From Basidiobolus meristosporus CBS 931.73 (taxonomy: Eukaryota > Basidiobolomycota > Basidiobolomycetes > Basidiobolales > Basidiobolaceae): a stretch of 27,938 nucleotides of DNA. The notes below the pieces were generated by a model that ran no database searches, had not been told where the DNA came from, and worked only from the letters and a program-made list of their open reading frames with translations. The position numbers were made by a program, and so were the translations under genes. Positions 7,051-27,938 of this stretch are shown in pieces (the first letter of the stretch is position 1; each line of letters starts with the position of its first letter). The stretch covers positions 1-27,938 of the forward strand of contig MCFE01000892.1 in the NCBI GenBank assembly GCA_002104905.1, read 5' to 3'.

Positions 7051-8130
7051 ATGAGCAACTCACCAAGTCGCTACCAGTTCTTCTTAGTATGCTTTTCAAT
7101 TGCAGTTGCCCAGATGGGTTATGGTGGCTTTGCTATTGCAGCGAAGTTATGTTTCTCTGGGGAGGAGCAAATTGACCCTATCCTCTTCACTTTCCTTCGC
7201 AACTCTTTTGCTACCCCACTACTCTTTCTCTTAGCCTATGTTGTGGAAAAACCTGAAAAATTTCTCCCGGACAGAGAGGATTGGTTGCCATTCCTACGCC
7301 TCGGGCTATTTGCGAACTTCTTTAACCACGTTTTCAACACTGTGGGTCTAAAATTGGCGCCTGCGTTTAACGGGACCCTAATTCAGCAAACGGTTCCTGC
7401 TATTGCTACTATCATAGCCGGGTTTCTTCATTTGGAGGTGGTGTCCCCGAGGAAGCCTACAGGTCTCTGTAAAATTATCGGTATTGTCCTATCACTCCTT
7501 GGGGCGGTCATGATCTTACTTCCAAAAGATACCGCGGAGCAGCCTAGCAAGGAGGGTTTCGAACTTTTCCTTGGAAACGTGTTTTTCATCATAAACGGCG
7601 CTTCCTACGCTTGCTCTGTCTTCTTGCAGCGGCCTCTGCTGAAGAAGTACCCGCCTGTTTACGTGACAGCTTGGACTTTCTGCTGTGGTGCGGCTCTCTT
7701 GAGTTTAGGATTTCTTGGTTCGCTGGGAACTGGGGATATCTTGGCACCACAGCGCTGGCACATTGGTACGAAAGCTTGGTTAGGTTTGGCCTACTCGGTA
7801 ATTGTCGGAAGTGTTTTCGGCTTTGCTATTCTGAGTTGGGGCAACAAACTGGTTGGCCCGGTTCTCACAACTAGTTTTACTCCATTGCAGCCTGTAATGA
7901 CTGCTTTGCTTTCATCGTGGTTCTTGGATTATCACCTCGAGACTACTGATTACATCGCCGCCACCTTGATCTTTTCTGGTCTCTTTGCCGTCACTGCAAG
8001 TAAGTATGTTGAAGGACGGCAGGCTGCCAGACAGAAGGGAGATGAGATTGTCGACACTGACGAGCCGGCCTCTGATGCTGAGAGCCGATCGCTCATGGAT
8101 AGCAAGAAAGTCATCAGAACATATTCTTGA
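7051..8130 (+). CDS. EamA/DMT-family transporter (drug/metabolite exporter-like)
   Basis: Single-exon gene of 359 residues. About ten hydrophobic segments in two five-helix halves match the EamA (DUF6) duplicated fold: residues ~8-30, 45-65, 80-100, 105-125, 140-158, then ~175-195, 205-230, 248-270, 280-300 and 305-325. Helix-linking motifs such as FTFLRN, FNGTLIQQTVP and SFTPLQPVMTALLS sit where plant WAT1-like and bacterial EamA exporters carry equivalent loops. The C-terminal ~35 residues are hydrophilic and acidic (DEIVDTDEPASDAESRS), a cytosolic tail. An in-frame TTG precedes it at 7006, but the ATG at 7051 places the first helix correctly. Substrate cannot be predicted. AATAAA near 8325 may end the transcript. 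Confidence 0.9.
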   Translation: MSNSPSRYQFFLVCFSIAVAQMGYGGFAIAAKLCFSGEEQIDPILFTFLRNSFATPLLFLLAYVVEKPEKFLPDREDWLPFLRLGLFANFFNHVFNTVGLKLAPAFNGTLIQQTVPAIATIIAGFLHLEVVSPRKPTGLCKIIGIVLSLLGAVMILLPKDTAEQPSKEGFELFLGNVFFIINGASYACSVFLQRPLLKKYPPVYVTAWTFCCGAALLSLGFLGSLGTGDILAPQRWHIGTKAWLGLAYSVIVGSVFGFAILSWGNKLVGPVLTTSFTPLQPVMTALLSSWFLDYHLETTDYIAATLIFSGLFAVTASKYVEGRQAARQKGDEIVDTDEPASDAESRSLMDSKKVIRTYS

Positions 8131-19971: not shown

Positions 19972-20157
19972 TTAGTGGAAGGAAAGTCACCAGTTTAATG
20001 AAATCATTATTTTACTGAGTACAAAACACTAAAGCTAAAATAAAGAACATAGCTAAGAGTTGTTGAATCCCCTAAGTAAATATTCTAACTTGAACTTTGC
20101 TTGAGCAATATTTTGCTGAATGAACTTAAGTTCTTGGGTGAAAGCAAAACTGAGAGA
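19972..20157 (-). mobile_element. Decayed retroelement tail (innermost relic)
   Basis: The plus strand reads TTAGTGGAAGGAAAGTCACC followed by TTAATGAAATCATTATTTTACT and later CACTAAAGC. This lines up with the tails farther out (TTAGGGGGAGGAAAGTCACC, then GTGGTGAAATCTTTATTTACTT and CTAAAGAAGCC), with several substitutions. Only about 185 bases separate it from the next tail, so it is a strongly 5'-truncated copy. It has the same orientation as all the others. No coding sequence remains. Confidence 0.55.
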
Positions 20158-20510
20158 TTAGGGGGGGGGACTCACAAATTGAACATTATACTTATCTATA
20201 TTATGGATATTTCAGCAAAAAGCTTGAATTGTGTAGACAAGGGTGTTGTAAATGTTGACAGAGTCTTGAAGATACTGGAAGTGATTGGGAGAACAAGTAA
20301 ATTATGTGGTTTTCACTTAATGATTTATTGAATTTAAGAGTAGTATTTGTACTTTTACATTGTCTTGGCATAATAAACATATAGAATATGTTAAGGAAGG
20401 TCACAAGTGTTATAAGGATTTGTTGTTTGACCAAAATATTCACCTAACTTAGTCACCTAGATCATTGCCTACAAATGTTAGAGAATACTGCCTAAATTCA
20501 TTATCAGGAT
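20158..20510 (-). mobile_element. Diverged 5'-truncated retroelement
   Basis: Begins on the plus strand with TTA plus nine G, then ACTCACAAATTGAACATTATACTT, a loose match to the AGTCACC...GGTGAAATCTTTATTT tail of the outer elements. The remaining ~320 bases are AT-rich and CpG-free and end exactly where the next TTA-plus-nine-G tail starts. An 80-codon open stretch on the minus strand (20201-20443) has no recognisable domain. It may belong to a different family that uses the same kind of end. Confidence 0.4.
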
Positions 20511-21767
20511 TTAGGGGGGGGGAGACAGTCACCAACAGGTGAAATCTTTATTTCAGTTAAAACAAAGAAGCCAGTGCTACTGTTGTAGCTCCAATACAAG
20601 AGTGTGTAGCTGAGGGGAATTTGTACGTAGGTTAATCAGGAGAGATGATAGTGCTTCAGTGCTCAAGACACTGTTCAGTGGGAAGGGTGGTAGCAAGAGG
20701 GGTAATAATGATTTGTGAACAACATTAATGAGGGGAATATGATAAGGATTGATATTCATCATAAAGTGAGTGTGCTGCTGCAGATATTGCTGCCAAAGGT
20801 CTGTCAAGTACTTCAGGTTGGCCAGCTTGGGTTTTTCTGACTGTAGAATATAGTTAGCAAACTTCTTGACTTCAGGATCTTCAAGTATACTTCTCCAGCA
20901 GGAGCCAGGTGTAGTGTGGTGTGTTCTCTTCCAGGTCTTGATCAGTGGGTTGTTGCAGTGGTGAAGTCTGAGATATAATCTGGTTCTAAGGTAGAGAAGT
21001 CTGATCTTGTAGGGCATAAACCCAAAAGCACCAGGAATAGCATGTCTGTAGGGGCATTCATGTAGATGAGGCACCAGGGATGTAATGCACCAGACTGCAA
21101 ACTTGTCAAGTTGAGTGCAGTCTCTAGAAGTAAGAGAGAAAGGTAGTAAGCCAAATTCCAGGACAGGGAACACAAACTGCTGAGTAGAAGGAGGCAGCTG
21201 GGAGCTGAAGTTGTAGGAGGAGTTACAGCCAGTTGCTTGTGGAGTGCTTGTCTTGCCAGGATAATTCTCTTCTTCAGGTGTGCTCCAGAGTCTAGTCCAG
21301 TAGGAAGGAAAGGAAAGCCAAGATATGTAGCAGAGACTTGAGCAGGTAGAGTGCAGTTATCTAAGTTGATAGGACAACCCAGAGGTACTGTCTTTGCAAT
21401 GGAAAGCAGGAGATTATTCTTCTGCAGATACTGGTGGATGGTCTGGGAGTCTTGTTGCACATTGGAGGAGGACATTCTGATGTCATCAGCAAAGAGAGTA
21501 ACCAGGCAGTCAGCTGAGAGTCTTGGGAAATCATTGAGGAAGATGACAAACAGTATAGGACCAAGCACAGAGCCTTGAACCACACCATTAGGAACTGAGA
21601 ATACAGCTGATTGCTCACTTGGGTGCAGAATTCTTGCTTGTGGATCCAGAAACAGAGACCTGACAAGGAGGGTGAGGGAGGTCATAGAGAAGCATTGCAA
21701 CTTGGACCAAAGCAGATTTCTGTCAACTGAATCAAAGGCCTTAGTAATATCAAACAAAACAGAGGGA
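20511..21767 (-). mobile_element. 5'-truncated LINE copy (same family as the 23196-27117 element)
   Basis: The 3' end on the plus strand is TTA, nine G, AGACAGTCACC, then the CACC/GGTG stem-loop and ATCTTTATTTCAG. The body aligns base for base with 23196-24452 of the outer LINE, differing at scattered positions. It breaks off after CAGAGGGA at about 21767, where the outer copy continues into TACTTGC. At that point the next element's TTAGGGGG begins directly, so the truncated 5' side is sealed by the next tail with at most one telomere-like repeat. Confidence 0.9.
20553..21767 (-). pseudogene. Broken reverse transcriptase (ORF2 C-terminal part)
   Basis: Encodes the RT from motif A (FDITKAFDSVD) through motif B (GVVQGSVLGPILF) and motif C (LFADDI) to the C-terminus. 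Relative to the intact copy it has a one-base deletion near 21180 (CTGCTGAG against CTGCTTGAG), shifting frame after the thumb region, and a Trp-to-stop (TAG) about eight codons before the ancestral stop. The endonuclease and N-terminal RT are absent through 5' truncation. It is therefore non-functional. Catalytic Asp residues are still present, so decay is recent. Confidence 0.9.
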
Positions 21768-21897
21768 TTAGGGGGAGGGAAAGTCACCAAGGTAGGTGAA
21801 ATCTTTATTTGATTTCAGACAAGTCTAACTACAAATAAAGAAGCCAACTGGGAATAGAAGATTCCCAAAGTAAACACTAAGTTGAATATGAATAAAT

Positions 21898-22626
21898 CTA
21901 AGCTAAAGTTAAAGCAGTATCCCAGAGTACACTGGAGTTCAGGTTCATGGGGGAGTGAAGTAGATAGGCTTGAGAGATATAATAATCTTTTAAGAAGTGG
22001 GTAACAGCGGGTGAAGGGGAGTTTTTGATAAGTGAAGTGAATCTTGAAAGCAGAGATTCCTCTAATGAGAAGGTCTTGTAAACTGGAGAATCAGGAAACT
22101 CTTTAAAGGCATGGTCAGTTGGTTCCCAGTAAAACTGGTCAGAGACATTTTGAGAGAATTGTTTAGCAATACTTTTGTCAAGTACTACCTCCAGAGTATG
22201 ATGGTTGATAAATCTCATGTTGACAATCTTGGATAAGTTGTAACCTTGTTGCTTGAGATACATCCTATGCTCAGATATAGGAATAAACTCCACATTGGCA
22301 AAGTAGCAGACAGCCCAGTCAGTAGCAGGAGGTAAATCAGAAGTGGCAGGAAACTTTCTTTTGGCCTTGGGAGGAGCAGCAGGATGTCTTGAGGAAGCAG
22401 GAACAGGCTTTTTGACAGCCTCAGAGTAGGAAGAGTGAGCAGGAGCAGATGAATCTTGGGGAGTCTTGTTGACAGGAGGAGTTGGCACAGGGACAATAGA
22501 TTCTTGCAGATCAGAAAAGGCAGAAAACAGCTTTTGAACTTGTTTCTTGAGTAAAGCATTTTCAGCTTCAACAAGTGCAAGCCTTTCATCCAGGAAAGAA
22601 ATCTGAAGGGAATGGAGTGAAGCCAT
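21898..22626 (-). CDS. ORF1 (Gag-like RNA-binding) protein of the ORF1-only element
   Basis: 242 residues from the ATG at 22626 (MASLHSLQISFLDERL). Residues ~10-40 form a coiled coil (ERLALVEAENALLKKQVQKL), residues ~50-105 are Pro/Ser/Ala-rich and basic. Residues ~110-180 resemble the RRM-like core of the outer LINE's ORF1: both show an A-T/S-x-W-x-V-x-Y strand, a PIS helix start, and LEVVLD/LEVILD before I-A. Both also end with a FLK...LWD segment. There is no CCHC zinc knuckle. The frame is open upstream through the 102-bp monomers, but two monomers of 103 bp break that frame, so I take the ATG as the start. The expected role is binding element RNA and carrying it to chromosome ends (inference). 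Confidence 0.75.
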   Translation of the reverse strand: MASLHSLQISFLDERLALVEAENALLKKQVQKLFSAFSDLQESIVPVPTPPVNKTPQDSSAPAHSSYSEAVKKPVPASSRHPAAPPKAKRKFPATSDLPPATDWAVCYFANVEFIPISEHRMYLKQQGYNLSKIVNMRFINHHTLEVVLDKSIAKQFSQNVSDQFYWEPTDHAFKEFPDSPVYKTFSLEESLLSRFTSLIKNSPSPAVTHFLKDYYISQAYLLHSPMNLNSSVLWDTALTLA

Positions 22627-22663
22627 AAGAAATAAGAAGAGGGTAGGATGGGGTGGGTGGGTG

Positions 22664-23195
22664 GGAAAATTAGCAGGGAGAAGAGAAGGAAGGAGCAAAA
22701 AATTCCAGAAGTCAGAATTTATAGATGGATAGACAAGGGTGGATGGATGGAATATTCCTGGGTTAGGAAAATTAGCAGGGAGAAGAGAAGGAAGGAGCAA
22801 AAAAATTCCAGAAGTCAGAATTTATAGATGGATAGACAAGGGTGGATGGATGGAATATTCCTGGGTTAGGAAAATTAGCAGGGAGAAGAGAAGGAAGGAG
22901 CAAAAAATTCCAGAAGTCAGAATTTATAGATGGATAGACAAGGGTGGATGGATGGAATATTCCTGGGTTAGGAAAATTAGCAGGGAGAAGAGAAGGAAGG
23001 AGCAAAAAATTCCAGAAGTCAGAATTTATAGATGGATAGACAAGGGTGGATGGATGGAATATTCCTGGGTTAGGAAAATTAGCAGGGAGAAGAGAAGGAA
23101 GGAGCAAAAAAATTCCAGAAGTCAGAATTTATAGATGGATAGACAAGGGTGGATGGATGGAATATTCCTGGGTTAGGAAAATTAGCAGGGAGAAG
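22664..23195 (-). repeat. Tandem array of ~102/103-bp 5' monomers
   Basis: About 5.2 copies; GGATGGATGG recurs at 22741, 22844, 22946, 23048 and 23151, so periods are 103, 102, 102 and 103. Copies are nearly identical and differ mainly by A6 versus A7. On the element's sense (minus) strand each monomer contains CTATAAATTC, then a pyrimidine-rich run (CTCCTTCCTTCTCTTCTCCC), then CCTAACCC. That order resembles a TATA box, an initiator-like tract and a telomere-like octamer. Placement just upstream of ORF1 matches promoter monomers of mouse L1 5' UTRs. Confidence 0.9.
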
Positions 23196-23231
23196 GGGGG
23201 GAGACAGTCACCAACAGGTGAAATCTTTATT

Positions 23232-26024
23232 TCAGTTGAAACAAAGAAGCCAGCGCCACTTTTGTAGCTTTGATACAAGCATGTGTAGCTGAGGGGAATT
23301 TGTAGGTAAGTTGATAAGAAGTGATGATAGTTCTTCAGTGCTCAAGACACTGTTCAGTGGGAAGGGGGGTAGCAAGAGAGGTAAGAATGACTTGTGAACA
23401 ACATTAATGAGGGGAATGTGATAAGGATTGATATTCATCATAAAGGGAGTGTGCTGCTGCAGATATTGCTGCCAAAGGTCTGTCAAGTACTTCAGGTAGG
23501 CCAGCTTGGGTTTTTCTGACTGCAGAATATAGTGAGCAAACTTCTTGACTTCAGGATCTCCCAGTATAGTTCTCCAGCAGGAGCCAGGTGTAGTGTGGTG
23601 TGTTCTCTTCCAGGCCTTAATCAGTGGGTTGTTGCAGTTGTGAAGTCTGAGGTATAATCTGGTTCTAAGGTAGAGAAGTCTGATCTTATAGGGCATAAAC
23701 CCAAAAGCACCAAGAATAGCATGTCTGTAGGGGCATTCAGGCAAATGAGGCACCAAGGAGGTAATGCACCATACTGCAAACTTGTCAAGCTTAGTGCAGT
23801 CTCTAGAAGTAAGAGAGAGAAGTGGTAAGCCAAATTCCAGGACAGGGAAGACAAACTGCTTGAGTAGAAGGAGGCAGCTGGGAGCTGAAGTTGTAGGAGG
23901 AGTAACAGCCAGTAGCTTGTGGAGTGCCTGTCTTGCCAGGATAATTCTCTTCTTCAGGTGTGCTCCAGAGTCTAGTCCAGTAGGAAGGAAAGGAAAGCCA
24001 AGATATGTAGCAGAAGCCTGAGCAGGTAGAGTGGAGTTCTCCAAGTTGATGGGAGAGCCCAAAGGTACTGTCTTTGCAATGGAAAGCTGGAGATTATTCT
24101 TCTGCAGATACTGGTGGATGGTCTGGGAGTCTTGTTGCACATTGGAAGAGGATATTCTGATGTCATCAGCAAAGAGAGTAACCAGGCAGTCAGCTGAGAG
24201 TCTTGGGAAATCATTCAGGAAGATGGCAAACAGTATAGGACCAAGCACAGAGCCTTGAACCACACCATTAGGAACTGAGAATACAGCTGATTGCTCACTT
24301 GGGTGCAGAATTCTTGCTTGTGGATCCAGAAACAGAGACCTGACAAGGAGGGTGAGGGAGGTACTGGAGAAGCATTGCAACTTGGACCAAAGCAGATTTC
24401 TGTCAACTGAATCAAAGGCCTTAGTAATATCAAACAGAACAGAGGGATACTTGCACTGGAGAGAGTGATCTTGGCTAAGTATGACTGCATATTCCAAGGA
24501 GAGGCCAGGAACAAAGCCAAACTGTGCAGGATGAAACTTGAGGGAGTCAGAGTAGAGCTCCTGAGCAAGCAGAAGCTCAAACACCTTTCTGCAGGTGGGC
24601 AGCAGAGATATTGGCCTGTAGGAGCTAGGATTCAGGTGCTTTCCTTTACCCTTGTACAGTGGCAGAACATTTGCAAAGGACCATTCCTCAGGAGTAGAAA
24701 GCTGGGCTGAGCATTGCTGAAACAGTGGAAGCAGAAGTGCAGACATGGCCTTGGTACTAGTCTTCAGAAGCTCATAGGAGATTGTGTCCACACCTGGAGC
24801 AGTAGAATTGGGAAGCCTCTTGAGCACATTATGGATTCTCCCTTGATCAAGTGCAAGTGGGATGGGCAGTGTCTTGAAGTCAGGATGAAAGCAAGGAGTT
24901 GAGTACTGCTTTGTAGAGAAGAAGATGTTAGCCAGCTGTTCTGTTGAAGGTAACTTCCTGGAAGAGGGCCTCATTGCCCTGTAGAGTCTTGATACTGTTC
25001 TTGTTATAGAGTTGGAAGATTGCAGAGGCAAAGAACTCATAATATGATCCCAGAGCTGAGTATGCAGAGTGTGGTGAATTGCCTTGGAGTGGTGTATTGC
25101 TGTCAGGAGGAGTTTCTCTGTTTTTGGTTTAGGGAAACTCAGGTAGCTTTGTTGCAGGGCTGAAACAATGGATTCCCATTTTCTTGAGGTAACAGCAGTA
25201 GTCTTGCATGGCAGTGAGAGGGAGGCAGACACCAGAATCAGATGCTTCACAAAGAGCCAGGCATAATTGAGATCATCTGGCAGAGAAAGTAGCAAACTGG
25301 CAAGCTTCAAGTAGTTCCCAAAGTCTTTCTTCTGATTCTTGGTAGCTTTGTGTGTGAGCACAGTAAGTTTTGGCAGCTTCTTCTTCACAACTGGTTGCAT
25401 AGAAAGGGACCAGGCTGGGTGGTCAGAGGCTCTCAAGGATCCTAGCTCAGCTCCAGAGAATTGCTTAACTTCATTCACAAAGTAGAGGGCAGCAGCAGAA
25501 GGGCAGATCCAGTCAACACATCTTTTCTCAGATTGAGCACCTAGTGCTAGCAGATGGCTTTCTCTCAGGAAGTTCAGTAGGAATGTAGACCTTGGCTTCA
25601 TTCTTGCAGTCAGAGTAGTCTTGTTCTCAGGATGGGGAATGTTGAGATCTCCAAGCAAGATAATAGGTGTTGATATAGATTGCTGGTATTGCTGAACTTT
25701 CTGGCATATAACTTGCACTTCCTGAAGGGCAAGACTTGGAGGCAGATAGCAGAGCACCAGACTGATAGTTGGCAACTGGAGAGCAGCACAGTAAGGGGAG
25801 TAAAGAGGAACACAGAGCTGAGGAGTACTGATGGTAGAAGAGATGAAGCAGATAGAGGAGGTATTCTTTGTTCTAGGAGTAGAAAAGCAATATAGATTAG
25901 TCAAAAGTATAGAGGGTAGCTGGACATCAATCAAACACAGGAGGGAAAATCTTGAAAGAAGTCTCTCTAGAGCTGGTCTTGATGGCTGTATGCTGTTGCA
26001 GTTAAGCAACAGAACTTCAGGTAG
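23232..26024 (-). CDS. LINE ORF2: APE-type endonuclease and reverse transcriptase
   Basis: About 930 residues, uninterrupted. Numbering from 26009: endonuclease core LNCNSIQPSRP at 2-12, CLIDVQLPS ~25-33 (family usually C-L-Q-E-T), CYLPPS ~87-92, GDLN 120-123, VDWICPS ~165-171, SDH 195-197. RT: NSTAPGVDTISYELLK 401-416, YKGKGK and SYRPISLLP 452-471, QFGF 496-499, motif A FDITKAFD 526-533, motif B NGVVQGSVLGPILF 581-594, motif C FADD 613-616. The ~300-residue C-terminal region has no RNase H and no CCHC that I can see. There is no ATG near the domain start; the frame runs back to a TGA at 26025-26027. The catalytic Glu position of the endonuclease appears to be Asp. It would make cDNA by target-primed synthesis in the nucleus. 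Confidence 0.93.
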   Translation of the reverse strand, partial: LPEVLLLNCNSIQPSRPALERLLSRFSLLCLIDVQLPSILLTNLYCFSTPRTKNTSSICFISSTISTPQLCVPLYSPYCAALQLPTISLVLCYLPPSLALQEVQVICQKVQQYQQSISTPIILLGDLNIPHPENKTTLTARMKPRSTFLLNFLRESHLLALGAQSEKRCVDWICPSAAALYFVNEVKQFSGAELGSLRASDHPAWSLSMQPVVKKKLPKLTVLTHKATKNQKKDFGNYLKLASLLLSLPDDLNYAWLFVKHLILVSASLSLPCKTTAVTSRKWESIVSALQQSYLSFPKPKTEKLLLTAIHHSKAIHHTLHTQLWDHIMSSLPLQSSNSITRTVSRLYRAMRPSSRKLPSTEQLANIFFSTKQYSTPCFHPDFKTLPIPLALDQGRIHNVLKRLPNSTAPGVDTISYELLKTSTKAMSALLLPLFQQCSAQLSTPEEWSFANVLPLYKGKGKHLNPSSYRPISLLPTCRKVFELLLAQELYSDSLKFHPAQFGFVPGLSLEYAVILSQDHSLQCKYPSVLFDITKAFDSVDRNLLWSKLQCFSSTSLTLLVRSLFLDPQARILHPSEQSAVFSVPNGVVQGSVLGPILFAIFLNDFPRLSADCLVTLFADDIRISSSNVQQDSQTIHQYLQKNNLQLSIAKTVPLGSPINLENSTLPAQASATYLGFPFLPTGLDSGAHLKKRIILARQALHKLLAVTPPTTSAPSCLLLLKQFVFPVLEFGLPLLSLTSRDCTKLDKFAVWCITSLVPHLPECPYRHAILGAFGFMPYKIRLLYLRTRLYLRLHNCNNPLIKAWKRTHHTTPGSCWRTILGDPEVKKFAHYILQSEKPKLAYLKYLTDLWQQYLQQHTPFMMNINPYHIPLINVVHKSFLPLLLPPFPLNSVLSTEELSSLLINLPTNSPQLHMLVSKLQKWRWLLCFN

Positions 26025-26027
26025 TCA
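26025..26027 (-). other. Possible readthrough stop (UGA-CUA) between ORF1 and ORF2
   Basis: On the sense strand GCC TGA CTA CCT leads straight into the endonuclease six codons later. The frame before this TGA reads an ORF1-like C-terminus (DAPFEELWDSAGHIV), comparable with the SVLWDTALTLA end of the other ORF1. ORF2 has no AUG at its start. UGA followed by CUA is the best known eukaryotic leaky-stop context. Only one copy covers this region. Confidence 0.45.
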
Positions 26028-26107
26028 GGCAGAGGTTGTAGCTTCTTCAGAGGCAGCATTGACAATGTGACCTGCAGAGTCCCAGAGCTCTTCAAATGGT
26101 GCATCAC

Positions 26108-27117
26108 TTAAGTCAGCAAGCAGGAAATGGCATGATTCTTGAGGAAGTATGCCACATCATAGGAGGGGGCTTGTCTCTTGATGGCAGCAAAGAAAGAGAG
26201 AATGGCAACAAGGGCTGGAGGCTTGTTGAACAGTAGAGAGTCAGAGGATTCAGATTCTTCAGGCACTATCTTGAAGTCAGTTTTCAGCCAGTTAAGGTTC
26301 TTCTCCACAAAGGCAACAAAGGGGTCAGCAATGTTTTGGTCTAGGATAACCTCCAGAATCTTCCCTTTTCTCCAGGCCAGGTTGACAAATCTTGAGAGCT
26401 GAATATTGCATGCCTTGAGTGCTCTCCTGATGTTGGAAATGGGAGTCCAGGGAACTTGCTTCAAGTACACCACAGTCCAGGTAGAAGCTGGTGGTAGGTT
26501 TGCTGGGGGCTTGTAAGTCCTTCTGTGTGGCAATGGAGCTGCAGTAGTCAGATTGGATTCCACATTCTCAGTAGAGGGTTTTCTTGATGTGTCTTGCTGA
26601 ATGGTACTGGAGCTGGATGTGCTGATAATTCTTGCTAGAACCTTGCCTGCATAAGTCTGAGGTATAGCTGAGGTAACTGTAGGGGTGGTGGCAGCTGGTG
26701 CAGGTGGAGAGGCAGAAACTGAAGCAGGAACTGAGGTCACCTGGGAGAAGGCAGTAGAAGCAGGTTTTCTGGGAGGAGCAGAGTTCACTATCCAGTTGTT
26801 CTGTAAAACACTGGAGTAGCTTTTCTGTTGAACAGGATCTTGCTCTTGAACAGGAACAGAAGCAGGAGGCTGGGGCTGAGCAGTAGTGGTAAGGCAGTGG
26901 CACTCCAAGGAAGCTTTTTGCAAGGCATCTCTGGCAGTTTTCAGGGCAGCATTGGCTTCATTCTTGAGCTTCTTGCATTGGGCATCCAGTCTCTTGTTTT
27001 CAATAGCCAAGGCAGTATTGGCAGCCTCTAAATCAGCAATTCTCTTCTCAATTGCAAGGAATCTCTGAAGAAATGCATCAGTAGAAGTGCTGGCATCTGG
27101 GAGAGCAGTGGCAGGAA
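26108..27117 (-). pseudogene. LINE ORF1 protein, 5'-truncated and probably frameshifted near its end
   Basis: Open from the element's truncated edge at 27117 without a Met, so the first residues are missing. A coiled coil (FLQRFLAIEKRIADLEAANT, continuing to about 26960) is followed by a long Ser/Pro/Ala-rich linker. An RRM-like core follows (TWTVVYLKQVPWTPISNI, RFVNLAWRKGKILEVILDQN). The frame stops at 26108. Shifting back one base at about 26115-26135 continues into LADLSDAPFEELWDSAGHIV and then the TGA at 26025, which matches the C-terminal LWD motif of the 21898-22626 protein. I therefore suspect a one-base deletion in this copy. No zinc knuckles. Role: binding element RNA, by homology of architecture. 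Confidence 0.75.
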
Positions 27118-27134
27118 TAGGGTTAGGGTTAGGG
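27118..27134 (+). repeat. Interstitial telomere repeats between elements
   Basis: TAGGGTTAGGGTTAGGG, nearly three units, sits between the truncated 5' end of the LINE and the next tail. This is the longest telomeric tract inside the stack; the other junctions hold one unit or none. Its G-rich strand points outward like the terminal telomere. Confidence 0.9.
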
Positions 27135-27192
27135 GGAGGAAAGTCACCAAGTGGTGAAATCTTTATTTACTTATGACAAGTATTTAAAGGGG
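27129..27192 (-). mobile_element. Tail-only element copy, about 60 bp
   Basis: TTAGGGGGAGGAAAGTCACC, stem-loop, ATCTTTATTTACTTATGACA and AGTATTTAAAG match the outer SINE-like element (27215-27280) with one substitution and then stop. It is an extreme 5' truncation: reverse transcription covered only the tail. It is followed by GGGTTAGGGG. Confidence 0.85.
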
Positions 27193-27214
27193 TTAGGGGA
27201 GGGGAGGAAAGTCT
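27193..27214 (-). mobile_element. Minimal tail fragment, about 21 bp
   Basis: TTAGGGGAGGGGAGGAAAGTC repeats just the last ~20 bases of the tail, with one extra GGGGA, and halts before the stem-loop. The next full tail begins immediately. It could be an aborted reverse transcription product or a slippage or template-jump event during insertion of its neighbour. Confidence 0.6.
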
Positions 27215-27299
27215 TTAGGGGGAGGAAAGTCACCAAGTGGTGAAATCTTTATTTACTTATGACAAGTATCTAAAGAAGCCAAGTTAATCTGAAGTTTTT

Positions 27300-27418
27300 C
27301 CTAGAAAGCTAGGTCTGAGAGATATCTTCCTGGTAAGCCAGGTCTGAGAGTTGAGAAGCTGAGTGGTACTATATTTCCTAGTTAGCTAGGTCTGAGATTG
27401 GTTTCCTGGAAAGCCAGG
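27300..27418 (-). repeat. Four covarying short hairpins in the SINE-like body
   Basis: Plus-strand copies: CCTAGAAAGCTAGG (27300-27313), CCTGGTAAGCCAGG (27329-27342), CCTAGTTAGCTAGG (27377-27390) and CCTGGAAAGCCAGG (27405-27418). Each is followed by YCTGAGA. The fourth stem pair is A-T in copies one and three and G-C in copies two and four, so pairing is preserved through a compensatory change. Loops are four bases ending in AG. Confidence 0.85.
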
Positions 27419-27676
27419 CCTGAGAAGTGAGAATCTGAATATATCTGAGCTAAGTTATACTGGTTTGCGGTAGCTGAATTGTGGCCGGAATGGCCAGTAG
27501 ACTGGGGGAACTGAGAGGAATTTCTGGGCGATCACTGGCCAAATTTACTAGGCAAATCTGGCCAATTAGCATTTCAAGGATTTCAGCCAATCAGAGCCTT
27601 TACTTTGCCCGATGGTTGATCAAGCCATCTCCCAATGAGCACACATCAATTTATTAATCAAATTTTGCTGGATCCA

Positions 27677-27739
27677 GGATTTGAACCCACAACCATGGGT
27701 ATGGAAGGGTTAGGGATAACCACAAGGCTAAGTGTTCTT
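27677..27739 (-). ncRNA. tRNA-like Pol III promoter head (A and B boxes)
   Basis: On the minus strand TAGCCTTGTGG (27730-27720) matches the A-box consensus TRGCNNAGTGG except one base. GGTTCAAATCC (27687-27677) matches the B-box consensus GGTTCGANTCC except one base. Box starts are 43 bases apart, as in tRNA genes. The cloverleaf is degenerate: I cannot form a convincing acceptor stem, so it is tRNA-derived and not a working tRNA. CCCTAACCC lies between the boxes. Confidence 0.75.
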
Positions 27740-27938
27740 GGGTTAGGGTTAGGGTTAGGGTTAGGGTTAGGGTTAGGGTTAGGGTTAGGGTTAGGGTTAG
27801 GGTTAGGGTTAGGGTTAGGGTTAGGGTTAGGGTTAGGGTTAGGGTTAGGGTTAGGGTTAGGGTTAGGGTTAGGGTTAGGTTAGGGTTAGGGTTAGGGTTA
27901 GGGTTAGGGTTAGGGTTAGGGTTAGGGTTAGGGTTAGG
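27740..27938 (+). repeat. Terminal telomere, (TTAGGG)n
   Basis: About 33 units of TTAGGG running to the end of the window with the G-rich strand pointing outward, the expected polarity for a right-hand chromosome end. One unit is TTAGG (27875-27879). Everything else is perfect, which indicates telomerase-made repeats. The open frame of alternating Gly-Leu across it has no meaning. Confidence 0.97.

Follow-up and report, generated by a model that had tools for sequence, protein, structure and literature searches.

The closest described systems are those of MoTeR1 and MoTeR2 in Magnaporthe oryzae and FoTeR in Fusarium oxysporum, which form arrays under TTAGGG repeats with the 5' end outward, truncated copies and short interstitial tracts. 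In Drosophila, HeT-A, TART and TAHRE build one-way stacks of 5'-truncated copies, likely by end attachment, and HeT-A is a Gag-only partner element. SART1 and TRAS1 of Bombyx are long interspersed elements (LINEs) of the apurinic/apyrimidinic endonuclease (APE) type, confined to telomere repeats in a fixed orientation. Endonuclease-deficient Penelope-like elements (Athena and Coprina) are also telomeric and are thought to be primed by the G-overhang, and pairs of a LINE and a short interspersed element (SINE) with a shared 3' tail are known as the stringent type. MoTeR 5' ends are telomere-ward and stable arrays hold at most two TTAGGG (PMC7367193), FoTeR and MoTeR cluster with CRE-type elements with a restriction-like endonuclease and FoTeR 3' ends have 3-7 repeats (PMC12857005), and SART1 requires at least three repeats and, in its authors' words, does not attach at the chromosome end (PMC7265360). 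Here we describe one-way stacks of an APE-type LINE, an ORF1-only element and a tRNA-like SINE beneath the TTAGGG telomeres of the fungus Basidiobolus meristosporus CBS 931.73, starting from one of them on contig MCFE01000892.1.

The window analyzed is this entire contig (C1193; 27,938 bp), and the searched assembly comprises 89.0 Mb in 1311 contigs. In 100 of 100 contigs, length decreases monotonically with the inferred number in the contig name, and the sizes of the remaining contigs were bracketed on this basis. On the plus strand, rightward is telomere-ward, and this is the cDNA strand of the array elements. From the sequences at the junctions, we consider it probable (about 0.6) that such telomere-attached arrays are built by the LINE reverse transcriptase, which would use the G-strand of short or uncapped ends as its primer and alternate with telomerase. 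The features of the window are listed below from the inside to the outside of the array, followed by the host gene.

19972..20157, minus strand: possible decayed tail copy (uncertain), 3 mismatches against the 16-mer GGTGAAATCTTTATTT
20158..20510, no strand: G-run without a hairpin, then a dispersed repeat at 20253-20513; no clear tail
20511..21767, minus strand: LINE copy; 3' tail at 20511, 5' truncation within the reverse transcriptase, disrupted frame (two overlapping frames)
21768..23195, minus strand: ORF1-only element; tail 21768-21848, ORF1 21898-22626, 102-bp repeats 22664-23195
23196..27118, minus strand: 5'-truncated LINE of 3.9 kb; ORF2 23235-26024 (930 aa), ORF1 26108-27118 with its 5' part missing
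27118..27135, plus strand: TAGGGTTAGGGTTAGGG, two to three telomere units separating the truncated LINE from the next tail (sequence and junction table)
27132..27189, minus strand: SINE 3' fragment of ~58 nt; tail with loop AAGT
27190..27213, minus strand: GGGTTAGGGG, then a micro-cDNA at 27201-27213 equal to the last 13 nt of the SINE 3' end
27214..27739, minus strand: full-length tRNA-like SINE after TTTAGGG; B box GGTTCAAATCC
27740..27938, plus strand: terminal telomere, 199 bp, 33.3 TTAGGG units (TRF)
7051-8127: host protein, 74% identity to a Basidiobolus ranarum protein

The 16-mer occurs in the window with zero mismatches at 20511, 21768, 23196, 27129 and 27215. With up to three mismatches it has six window matches, against a mean of 0.57 and a largest value of 3 in shuffled sequences, and the strict motif AAAGTCACC(N4-6)GGTGAAATC has three matches, against none in 100 shuffles. 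A preliminary description of this DNA had counted at least eight tails. Six of them are clear, including one placed at 27193 that proved to be only the 13-nt tail fragment at 27201-27213; the tail claimed at 19972 is degenerate, and that at 20158 is the G-run entering the dispersed repeat. The uniform orientation reported there is borne out, as all six clear tails point their 3' ends inward, and so is the persistence of a TTAGGG telomere (199 bp) outside the combined LINE, ORF1-only and SINE stack. Truncation at the 5' edge applies to the LINE copies and to the ORF1-only element, in which 5.2 copies of the 102-bp repeat are followed by the cut of the next tail; it does not apply to the outermost SINE (~27217-27739), whose 5' end coincides with that of other full-length copies. 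The 3' junction of the 3.9-kb LINE has no TTAGGG and reads GAGAAGGGGGGGAGACA, and the inner LINE copy still matches RVT_1 (E 6.9e-17, Pfam) in the frame 20942-21814. The array strand that continues into the telomere G-strand is rich in G, with a GC skew of 0.22-0.42 per kb across 20-27 kb and at most 0.16 elsewhere in the window. Its host flank is single copy in the genome, and a search with this flank for an element-free allele therefore found none. The dispersed repeat at 20253-20513 has 86 genome matches (40 candidates scored) on both strands, with parts often inverted relative to each other; its seven other copies with a measurable position are on both strands, at distances of 3 to 72 kb from a contig end.

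The same location and polarity were found throughout the assembly. The tail pattern GTCACC(N4-7)GGTGAAATCTTTATTT has 1399 forward and 123 reverse copies (1522 in all; reversed-pattern control, 0). Overlapping (TTAGGG)6 matches number 6568 forward and 68 reverse (controls, 0 and 11), a bias indicating that most contigs are oriented with the telomere at the right. Among 314 candidates, 150 copies of the LINE endonuclease region were scored, 147 on the minus and 3 on the plus strand; all 147 minus copies lie less than 30 kb from the right contig end, and for 110 of them the contig exceeds 60 kb. Eleven of 138 contigs contain two or more such copies, in no case on mixed strands. Of 100 listed tails preceded by two TTAGGG, 63 are in contigs above 60 kb, and for 62 of them the end predicted by their polarity is less than 30 kb away. 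The preliminary description had set near-exclusive terminal location and fixed polarity as its test, and both hold with few exceptions (C726 and C402).

The three plus copies are in C726, C1257 and C284 (12 kb). In C726, an inverted array is situated ~10-13 kb inward of a right-hand telomere, which is accompanied by forward tails of its own, and this mixed contig probably arose by rearrangement; C1257 starts within a reversed LINE. Among 11 contigs with reverse copies whose left ends were read, two start with a telomere (C419 and C424) and nine do not, so that most reverse copies are untraced to a telomere; by eye, C80 and C979 start within reversed element sequence. C424 (312,558 bp) runs from telomere to telomere: on the left, CCCTAA precedes a reversed SINE, and on the right, SINE copies precede TTAGGG. 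It thus has mirror-image arrays at its two telomeres. In a systematic sample of every 65th contig (n=20; last 1000 bp of right ends, first 400 bp of left ends), four right ends and none of the left ends carried a telomere. By extrapolation from 4/20 the genome would have ~260 telomeres; the assembly seems to be oriented with the telomere at the right, and hundreds of telomeres may be present.

Most tails stand on a very short remnant of telomere. Among 136 fetched tails, which are not a random sample, the number of TTAGGG-like units inward of the tail was 0 (11 tails), 1 (84), 2 (28), 3 (8) or at least 4 (5), i.e., three or fewer in 131. Genome-wide, a tail follows within 12 nt of one TTAGGG in 1469 matches (reversed-pattern control, 6), of two tandem units in 331 (control, 0) and of four in 26 (control, 0); these are matches rather than tails, with double counts in 3 of 100 listed rows (one unit), 3 of 100 (two) and 2 of 26 (four). 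Terminal telomere tracts have a median of ~201 bp (40 ends, 3 of them lower bounds), and uniform insertion along such a telomere would leave three or fewer units in ~12% of cases. Random insertion within the telomere was therefore rejected on the tract-length counts. The outermost tail under a live telomere already has one unit (11) or two (4) in 15 of 15 true tails, and a further one, in C1235, has at least four. The sixteenth row of this table (L188) was left out as a false match inside an ORF1-only element, and L186 has one later, variant-spelled tail missed by the script, with one TTAGGG after TTAAGGG. Tails with no unit before them, e.g., GAGAAGGGGGGGGGAGACA, follow sequence with a G-rich end in the cases read (L056, L029, L072 and window 23196). 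The joint contains a run of 3-10 Gs, as might arise if a C-rich RNA end slipped on GGG.

The shortest elements are micro-cDNAs, pieces of 8-45 nt followed by TTAGGG, which were recognized by eye at window 27201-27213 and in L014, L052, L067, L088 and L100. A search for LINE 3' ends that pass into TTAGGG within 39 nt gave 32 matches (27 forward and 5 reverse, with two double counts; control, 1). Eighteen of these were read: 13 lead into a further tail (in L207 a variant one), 3 into a live telomere and 2 into a different repeat. Live telomeres stand on cDNA of 10-45 nt at 6 of 40 ends (C293, C473, C1102, C1109, C726 and C258), three of which (C473, C1102 and C1109) were chosen from the micro-cDNA search itself. 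Micro-cDNAs thus occur even at live telomeres, and we claim no over-representation. Triple stacks are present in L206 and L225; in L225 (C793), three tails of different families are stacked within ~120 bp. In L200 and L205, a LINE micro-cDNA is directly followed by this different repeat, read as starting TTAGGGTGTAGG or, with L054 included, TTAGGGTGTAGGTGTTATAGTAAGGGC.

Telomere repeats join the truncated elements with a mean microhomology of 2.23 nt, against 1.35 nt in a simulation built from the three elements only, although a few of the 52 junctions are truncations of other sequence (p 0.0001). With all 64 junctions the mean is 2.36 nt. Twelve of the 64 had been removed by hand after inspection: seven full-length SINE ends, three with a telomeric or unusable reference (L034 terminal, L104 and window terminal) and two without telomere at the joint (L056 and window 23196). 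The excess is as expected if telomerase anneals to the end, and annealing-type repair would also give it.

Of the four telomeres in the systematic sample, one caps an ORF1-only element, one a LINE, one a truncated Copia-like element and one a 12-nt LINE micro-cDNA that itself overlies another repeat. Forty live telomeres, mostly picked for a nearby element and hence not a fair sample, were classified by hand: 33 are directly on a LINE (12), an ORF1-only element (5), a SINE (10) or a micro-cDNA (6), one is on a diverged relative and six are on other sequence. These six comprise one Copia-like and one Gypsy-like fragment, two cases of a G-rich 72-bp repeat, an unknown sequence and a LINE covered by ~52 nt of filler. 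The filler, in L107 (C1), matches neither LINE, SINE nor ORF1-only element, is partly telomere-like and could be cDNA of another RNA. A second filler, suspected under the telomere of C491, was rejected as the sequence beneath is LINE 5' sequence. By eye, the telomeres of L169 (C1008) and L182 (C524) stand directly on truncated Copia-like and Gypsy-like pol, respectively, in the sense direction, and broken ends therefore seem to be healed by telomere addition. The genome also encodes telomerase: Telomerase_RBD (TERT) was found in two pieces at C880, both above the cut-off.

The LINE is assigned to the APE-type non-LTR retrotransposons by its predicted domains, an N-terminal APE endonuclease followed by the reverse transcriptase. 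In the 930-aa ORF2 of the window, RVT_1 has an E value of 2.3e-25 (90 bits, Pfam), and Exo_endo_phos_2 (PF14529) has 3.3e-4 (20.9 bits, below its cut-off of 27.4). No restriction-enzyme-like endonuclease was found in ORF2 with Pfam, only the APE-type and reverse transcriptase domains, and the best PDB match of the latter is the LINE-1 ORF2 protein (E 4e-13). Of the endonuclease residues that we take to form the active site by their names in LINE-1, N, Y, D, N, D and H are kept, and E is replaced by D in all three clade sequences covering it (window, P0001 and P0003). A LINE with a dead endonuclease was rejected, since this E-to-D substitution is the sole active-site change. Open frames of at least 900 aa contain 80 of the 150 endonuclease-region copies, and the family therefore looks recently active. 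The nonsynonymous/synonymous ratio of the endonuclease is 0.16 in 12 copies, a biased set because the copies are the best protein matches. The full-length LINE is probably ~4.6 kb. In all 12 compared copies, ORF2 starts with LPEVLLLNC; in the window (26024), this follows directly after a stop without an ATG, and the relative P0001 has MDLLLLNC instead. ORF2 may be started by reinitiation or at a non-ATG codon.

The ORF1 of the ORF1-only element is 35% identical to that of the LINE over 142 aa (E 2e-20); at E 0.01 it has no match in Pfam. Tandem repeats of 102 or ~72 bp lie under telomeres in more than one element family (window 22652-23195, L158, L193, L034 and L247), and the first three of these share the G-rich motif GGGTGGGTGGGTGGGAAA, which could be a quadruplex motif. 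The B box of the SINE is, by eye, a perfect match to the consensus, and ARAGORN and Rfam gave 0 genes and 0 matches, respectively. In five sequences compared, the LINE, the ORF1-only element and the SINE have a common 3' hairpin, CTTTATTT and GAAGCCA. The shared end consists of a TCACC/GGTGA hairpin and a C-rich terminus. The hairpin was predicted in all four tails folded, with only the LINE tail clearly beating shuffled sequences (z -4.2) and the others at -1.5, -1.3 and -0.3. Its stem is constant in the sequences used.

We propose the following pathway for these arrays. At an end holding about one repeat, rarely none, the C-rich RNA 3' end would pair with GGG of the telomeric G-strand, whose 3' end the LINE reverse transcriptase would extend into element sequence. 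Telomerase would then add TTAGGG to the new end, whether the copy is complete or truncated, and the next element could start on this added TTAGGG; breakage and healing of chromosome ends presumably also take place. The sequences themselves show the location and polarity of the elements, their common tails, the short telomere remnants, the micro-cDNAs, the microhomology and a TERT gene; that the chromosome end itself serves as the primer, and not a nick, and that the LINE takes turns with telomerase, are the parts that we infer. Attachment to the chromosome end fits the remnants and the micro-cDNAs, and priming by a G-strand 3' end or by a nick in the G-strand, as the preliminary description had proposed, agrees with the junctions read. 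We would give even odds to the stronger form, in which the LINE machinery is a second, facultative chromosome-end polymerase that starts on an uncut single-stranded G end, sometimes detaches after 8-45 nt and then returns the end to telomerase, with the ORF1-only element and the SINE riding on the same 3' signal. The fixed orientation was rejected as proof of end-priming, since SART and TRAS are oriented too. The earlier description expected mixed orientation of an APE-type LINE inserting at random sites, yet uniform polarity is compatible with insertion by the endonuclease: SART1 is a telomere-specific LINE of the APE type.

Several observations weigh against end-priming. The LINE tail at C402:165365, with two TTAGGG, lies 80.7 kb from the right end, the only interior one of the 63 checked; it may be a former chromosome end. 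At least four telomere units precede 5 of the 136 tails, and assembled telomeres may have been trimmed. The endonuclease is kept with most catalytic residues present, suggesting that it still does something. Finally, a new insertion of MoTeR, an endonuclease-bearing element, lies one TTAGGG from the telomere base (PMC7367193). The main rival is accordingly target-primed insertion, in which the APE endonuclease would nick the G-strand in the first repeats by the telomere base and leave the old telomere outside. The retention of the endonuclease (most catalytic residues, the long open frames and, in a biased set, the low substitution ratio) argues for it, as do the position of most junctions within TTAGGG and the precedents of MoTeR, with its restriction-like enzyme, and SART1, an APE-type element that also inserts in telomeric DNA. 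We nevertheless hold it to be unlikely: it demands a strong preference for the innermost 1-2 of ~33 repeats, SART1 for its part requires three or more, TTAGGG is missing from some junctions, and stacked cDNAs of 8-30 nt are awkward where second-strand resolution is needed.

It appears quite improbable that elements insert all along the telomere and that breaks at long interstitial tracts then leave only short-tract insertions. Tracts of at least three TTAGGG break often in Magnaporthe, their loss could mimic the remnants, and the telomeres on Copia-like and Gypsy-like sequence, read by eye, suggest breaking and healing; random insertion would, however, leave mostly long tracts under the outermost tails, which already have 1-2 units in all but the one in C1235. 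Still less credible is the view that recombination or break-induced replication between chromosome ends, and not reverse transcription, has been the main means by which the arrays spread. Telomere repeats and shared end sequences would permit exchange, and C726 contains an inverted array, but truncation points, remnants and order differ among the 105 listed junctions (full-length SINE ends apart), so that junctions are mostly unique at each end, the families combine a common 3' end with different bodies, and full-length LINE and SINE 5' ends recur. An assembly or contig-end artefact is hardly conceivable. The strong orientation of contigs with the telomere at the right is odd for an assembler; against this stand the 1522 tail copies, the 100 listed tail places, which include 11 contigs of more than 160 kb with every place at most 23 kb from an end, the completeness of C424 with arrays at both ends and the single-copy host flank of the window's array.

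Returning to priming by the chromosome end, the Basidiobolus system works like MoTeR and probably like HeT-A, and departs from each in one defining feature. It has the MoTeR layout, with the 5' end telomere-ward and a repeat at the 3' junction (the exceptions being the 11 of 136 tails for the repeat, and C726 and C402 for position), and, as in MoTeR, a partner with a common 3' end. MoTeR and FoTeR differ in their restriction-enzyme-like endonuclease, whereas the Basidiobolus LINE has the N-terminal APE type and is joined by an ORF1-only element and a SINE; the 3-7 repeats of FoTeR also contrast with the mostly single TTAGGG found here. Drosophila has neither telomerase nor telomere repeats, which HeT-A, TART and TAHRE replace; the Basidiobolus elements do not replace them, as shown by Telomerase_RBD and the TTAGGG ends. 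SART1 inserts into tracts of at least three repeats, while 84 of the 136 Basidiobolus tails have one unit and 11 have none. Penelope-like elements have a different class of reverse transcriptase and no endonuclease, in contrast to the LINE-1-like enzyme and retained APE of this LINE. As in the known LINE/SINE pairs, the SINE and the ORF1-only element share the LINE 3' hairpin and GAAGCCA; here the target would be the chromosome end. We know of no SINE or micro-cDNA ladder in Zepp. Zepp of Chlorella, cited in PMC10088271, is likewise a LINE piled up in a telomeric region, and the available part of that source names SART, TRAS, GilM, GilT, Zepp, MoTeR, Tx1-1_ACar, Athena and the Drosophila elements as telomeric, with no SINE among them. 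In the part of PMC4700185 at hand, SINEs appear only as Alu or by analogy, and the accessible portion of PMC10386755 says nothing of Basidiobolus telomeres. Among the titles retrieved in searches for Basidiobolus telomeres, retrotransposons or chromosomes, and for telomeric SINEs, there was no such report.

The arrays link two usually separate systems, telomeres made by telomerase and retroelement telomeres of the Drosophila type. They add a fungal example of the APE type and, as far as the literature searched shows, a telomeric SINE; if our reading is true, this would be, to our knowledge, the first SINE known to dwell at telomeres. More than 1000 junctions in a single genome, ten-letter cDNAs included, may record the action of both enzymes, which would make the sharing of a chromosome end between a LINE and telomerase directly testable.

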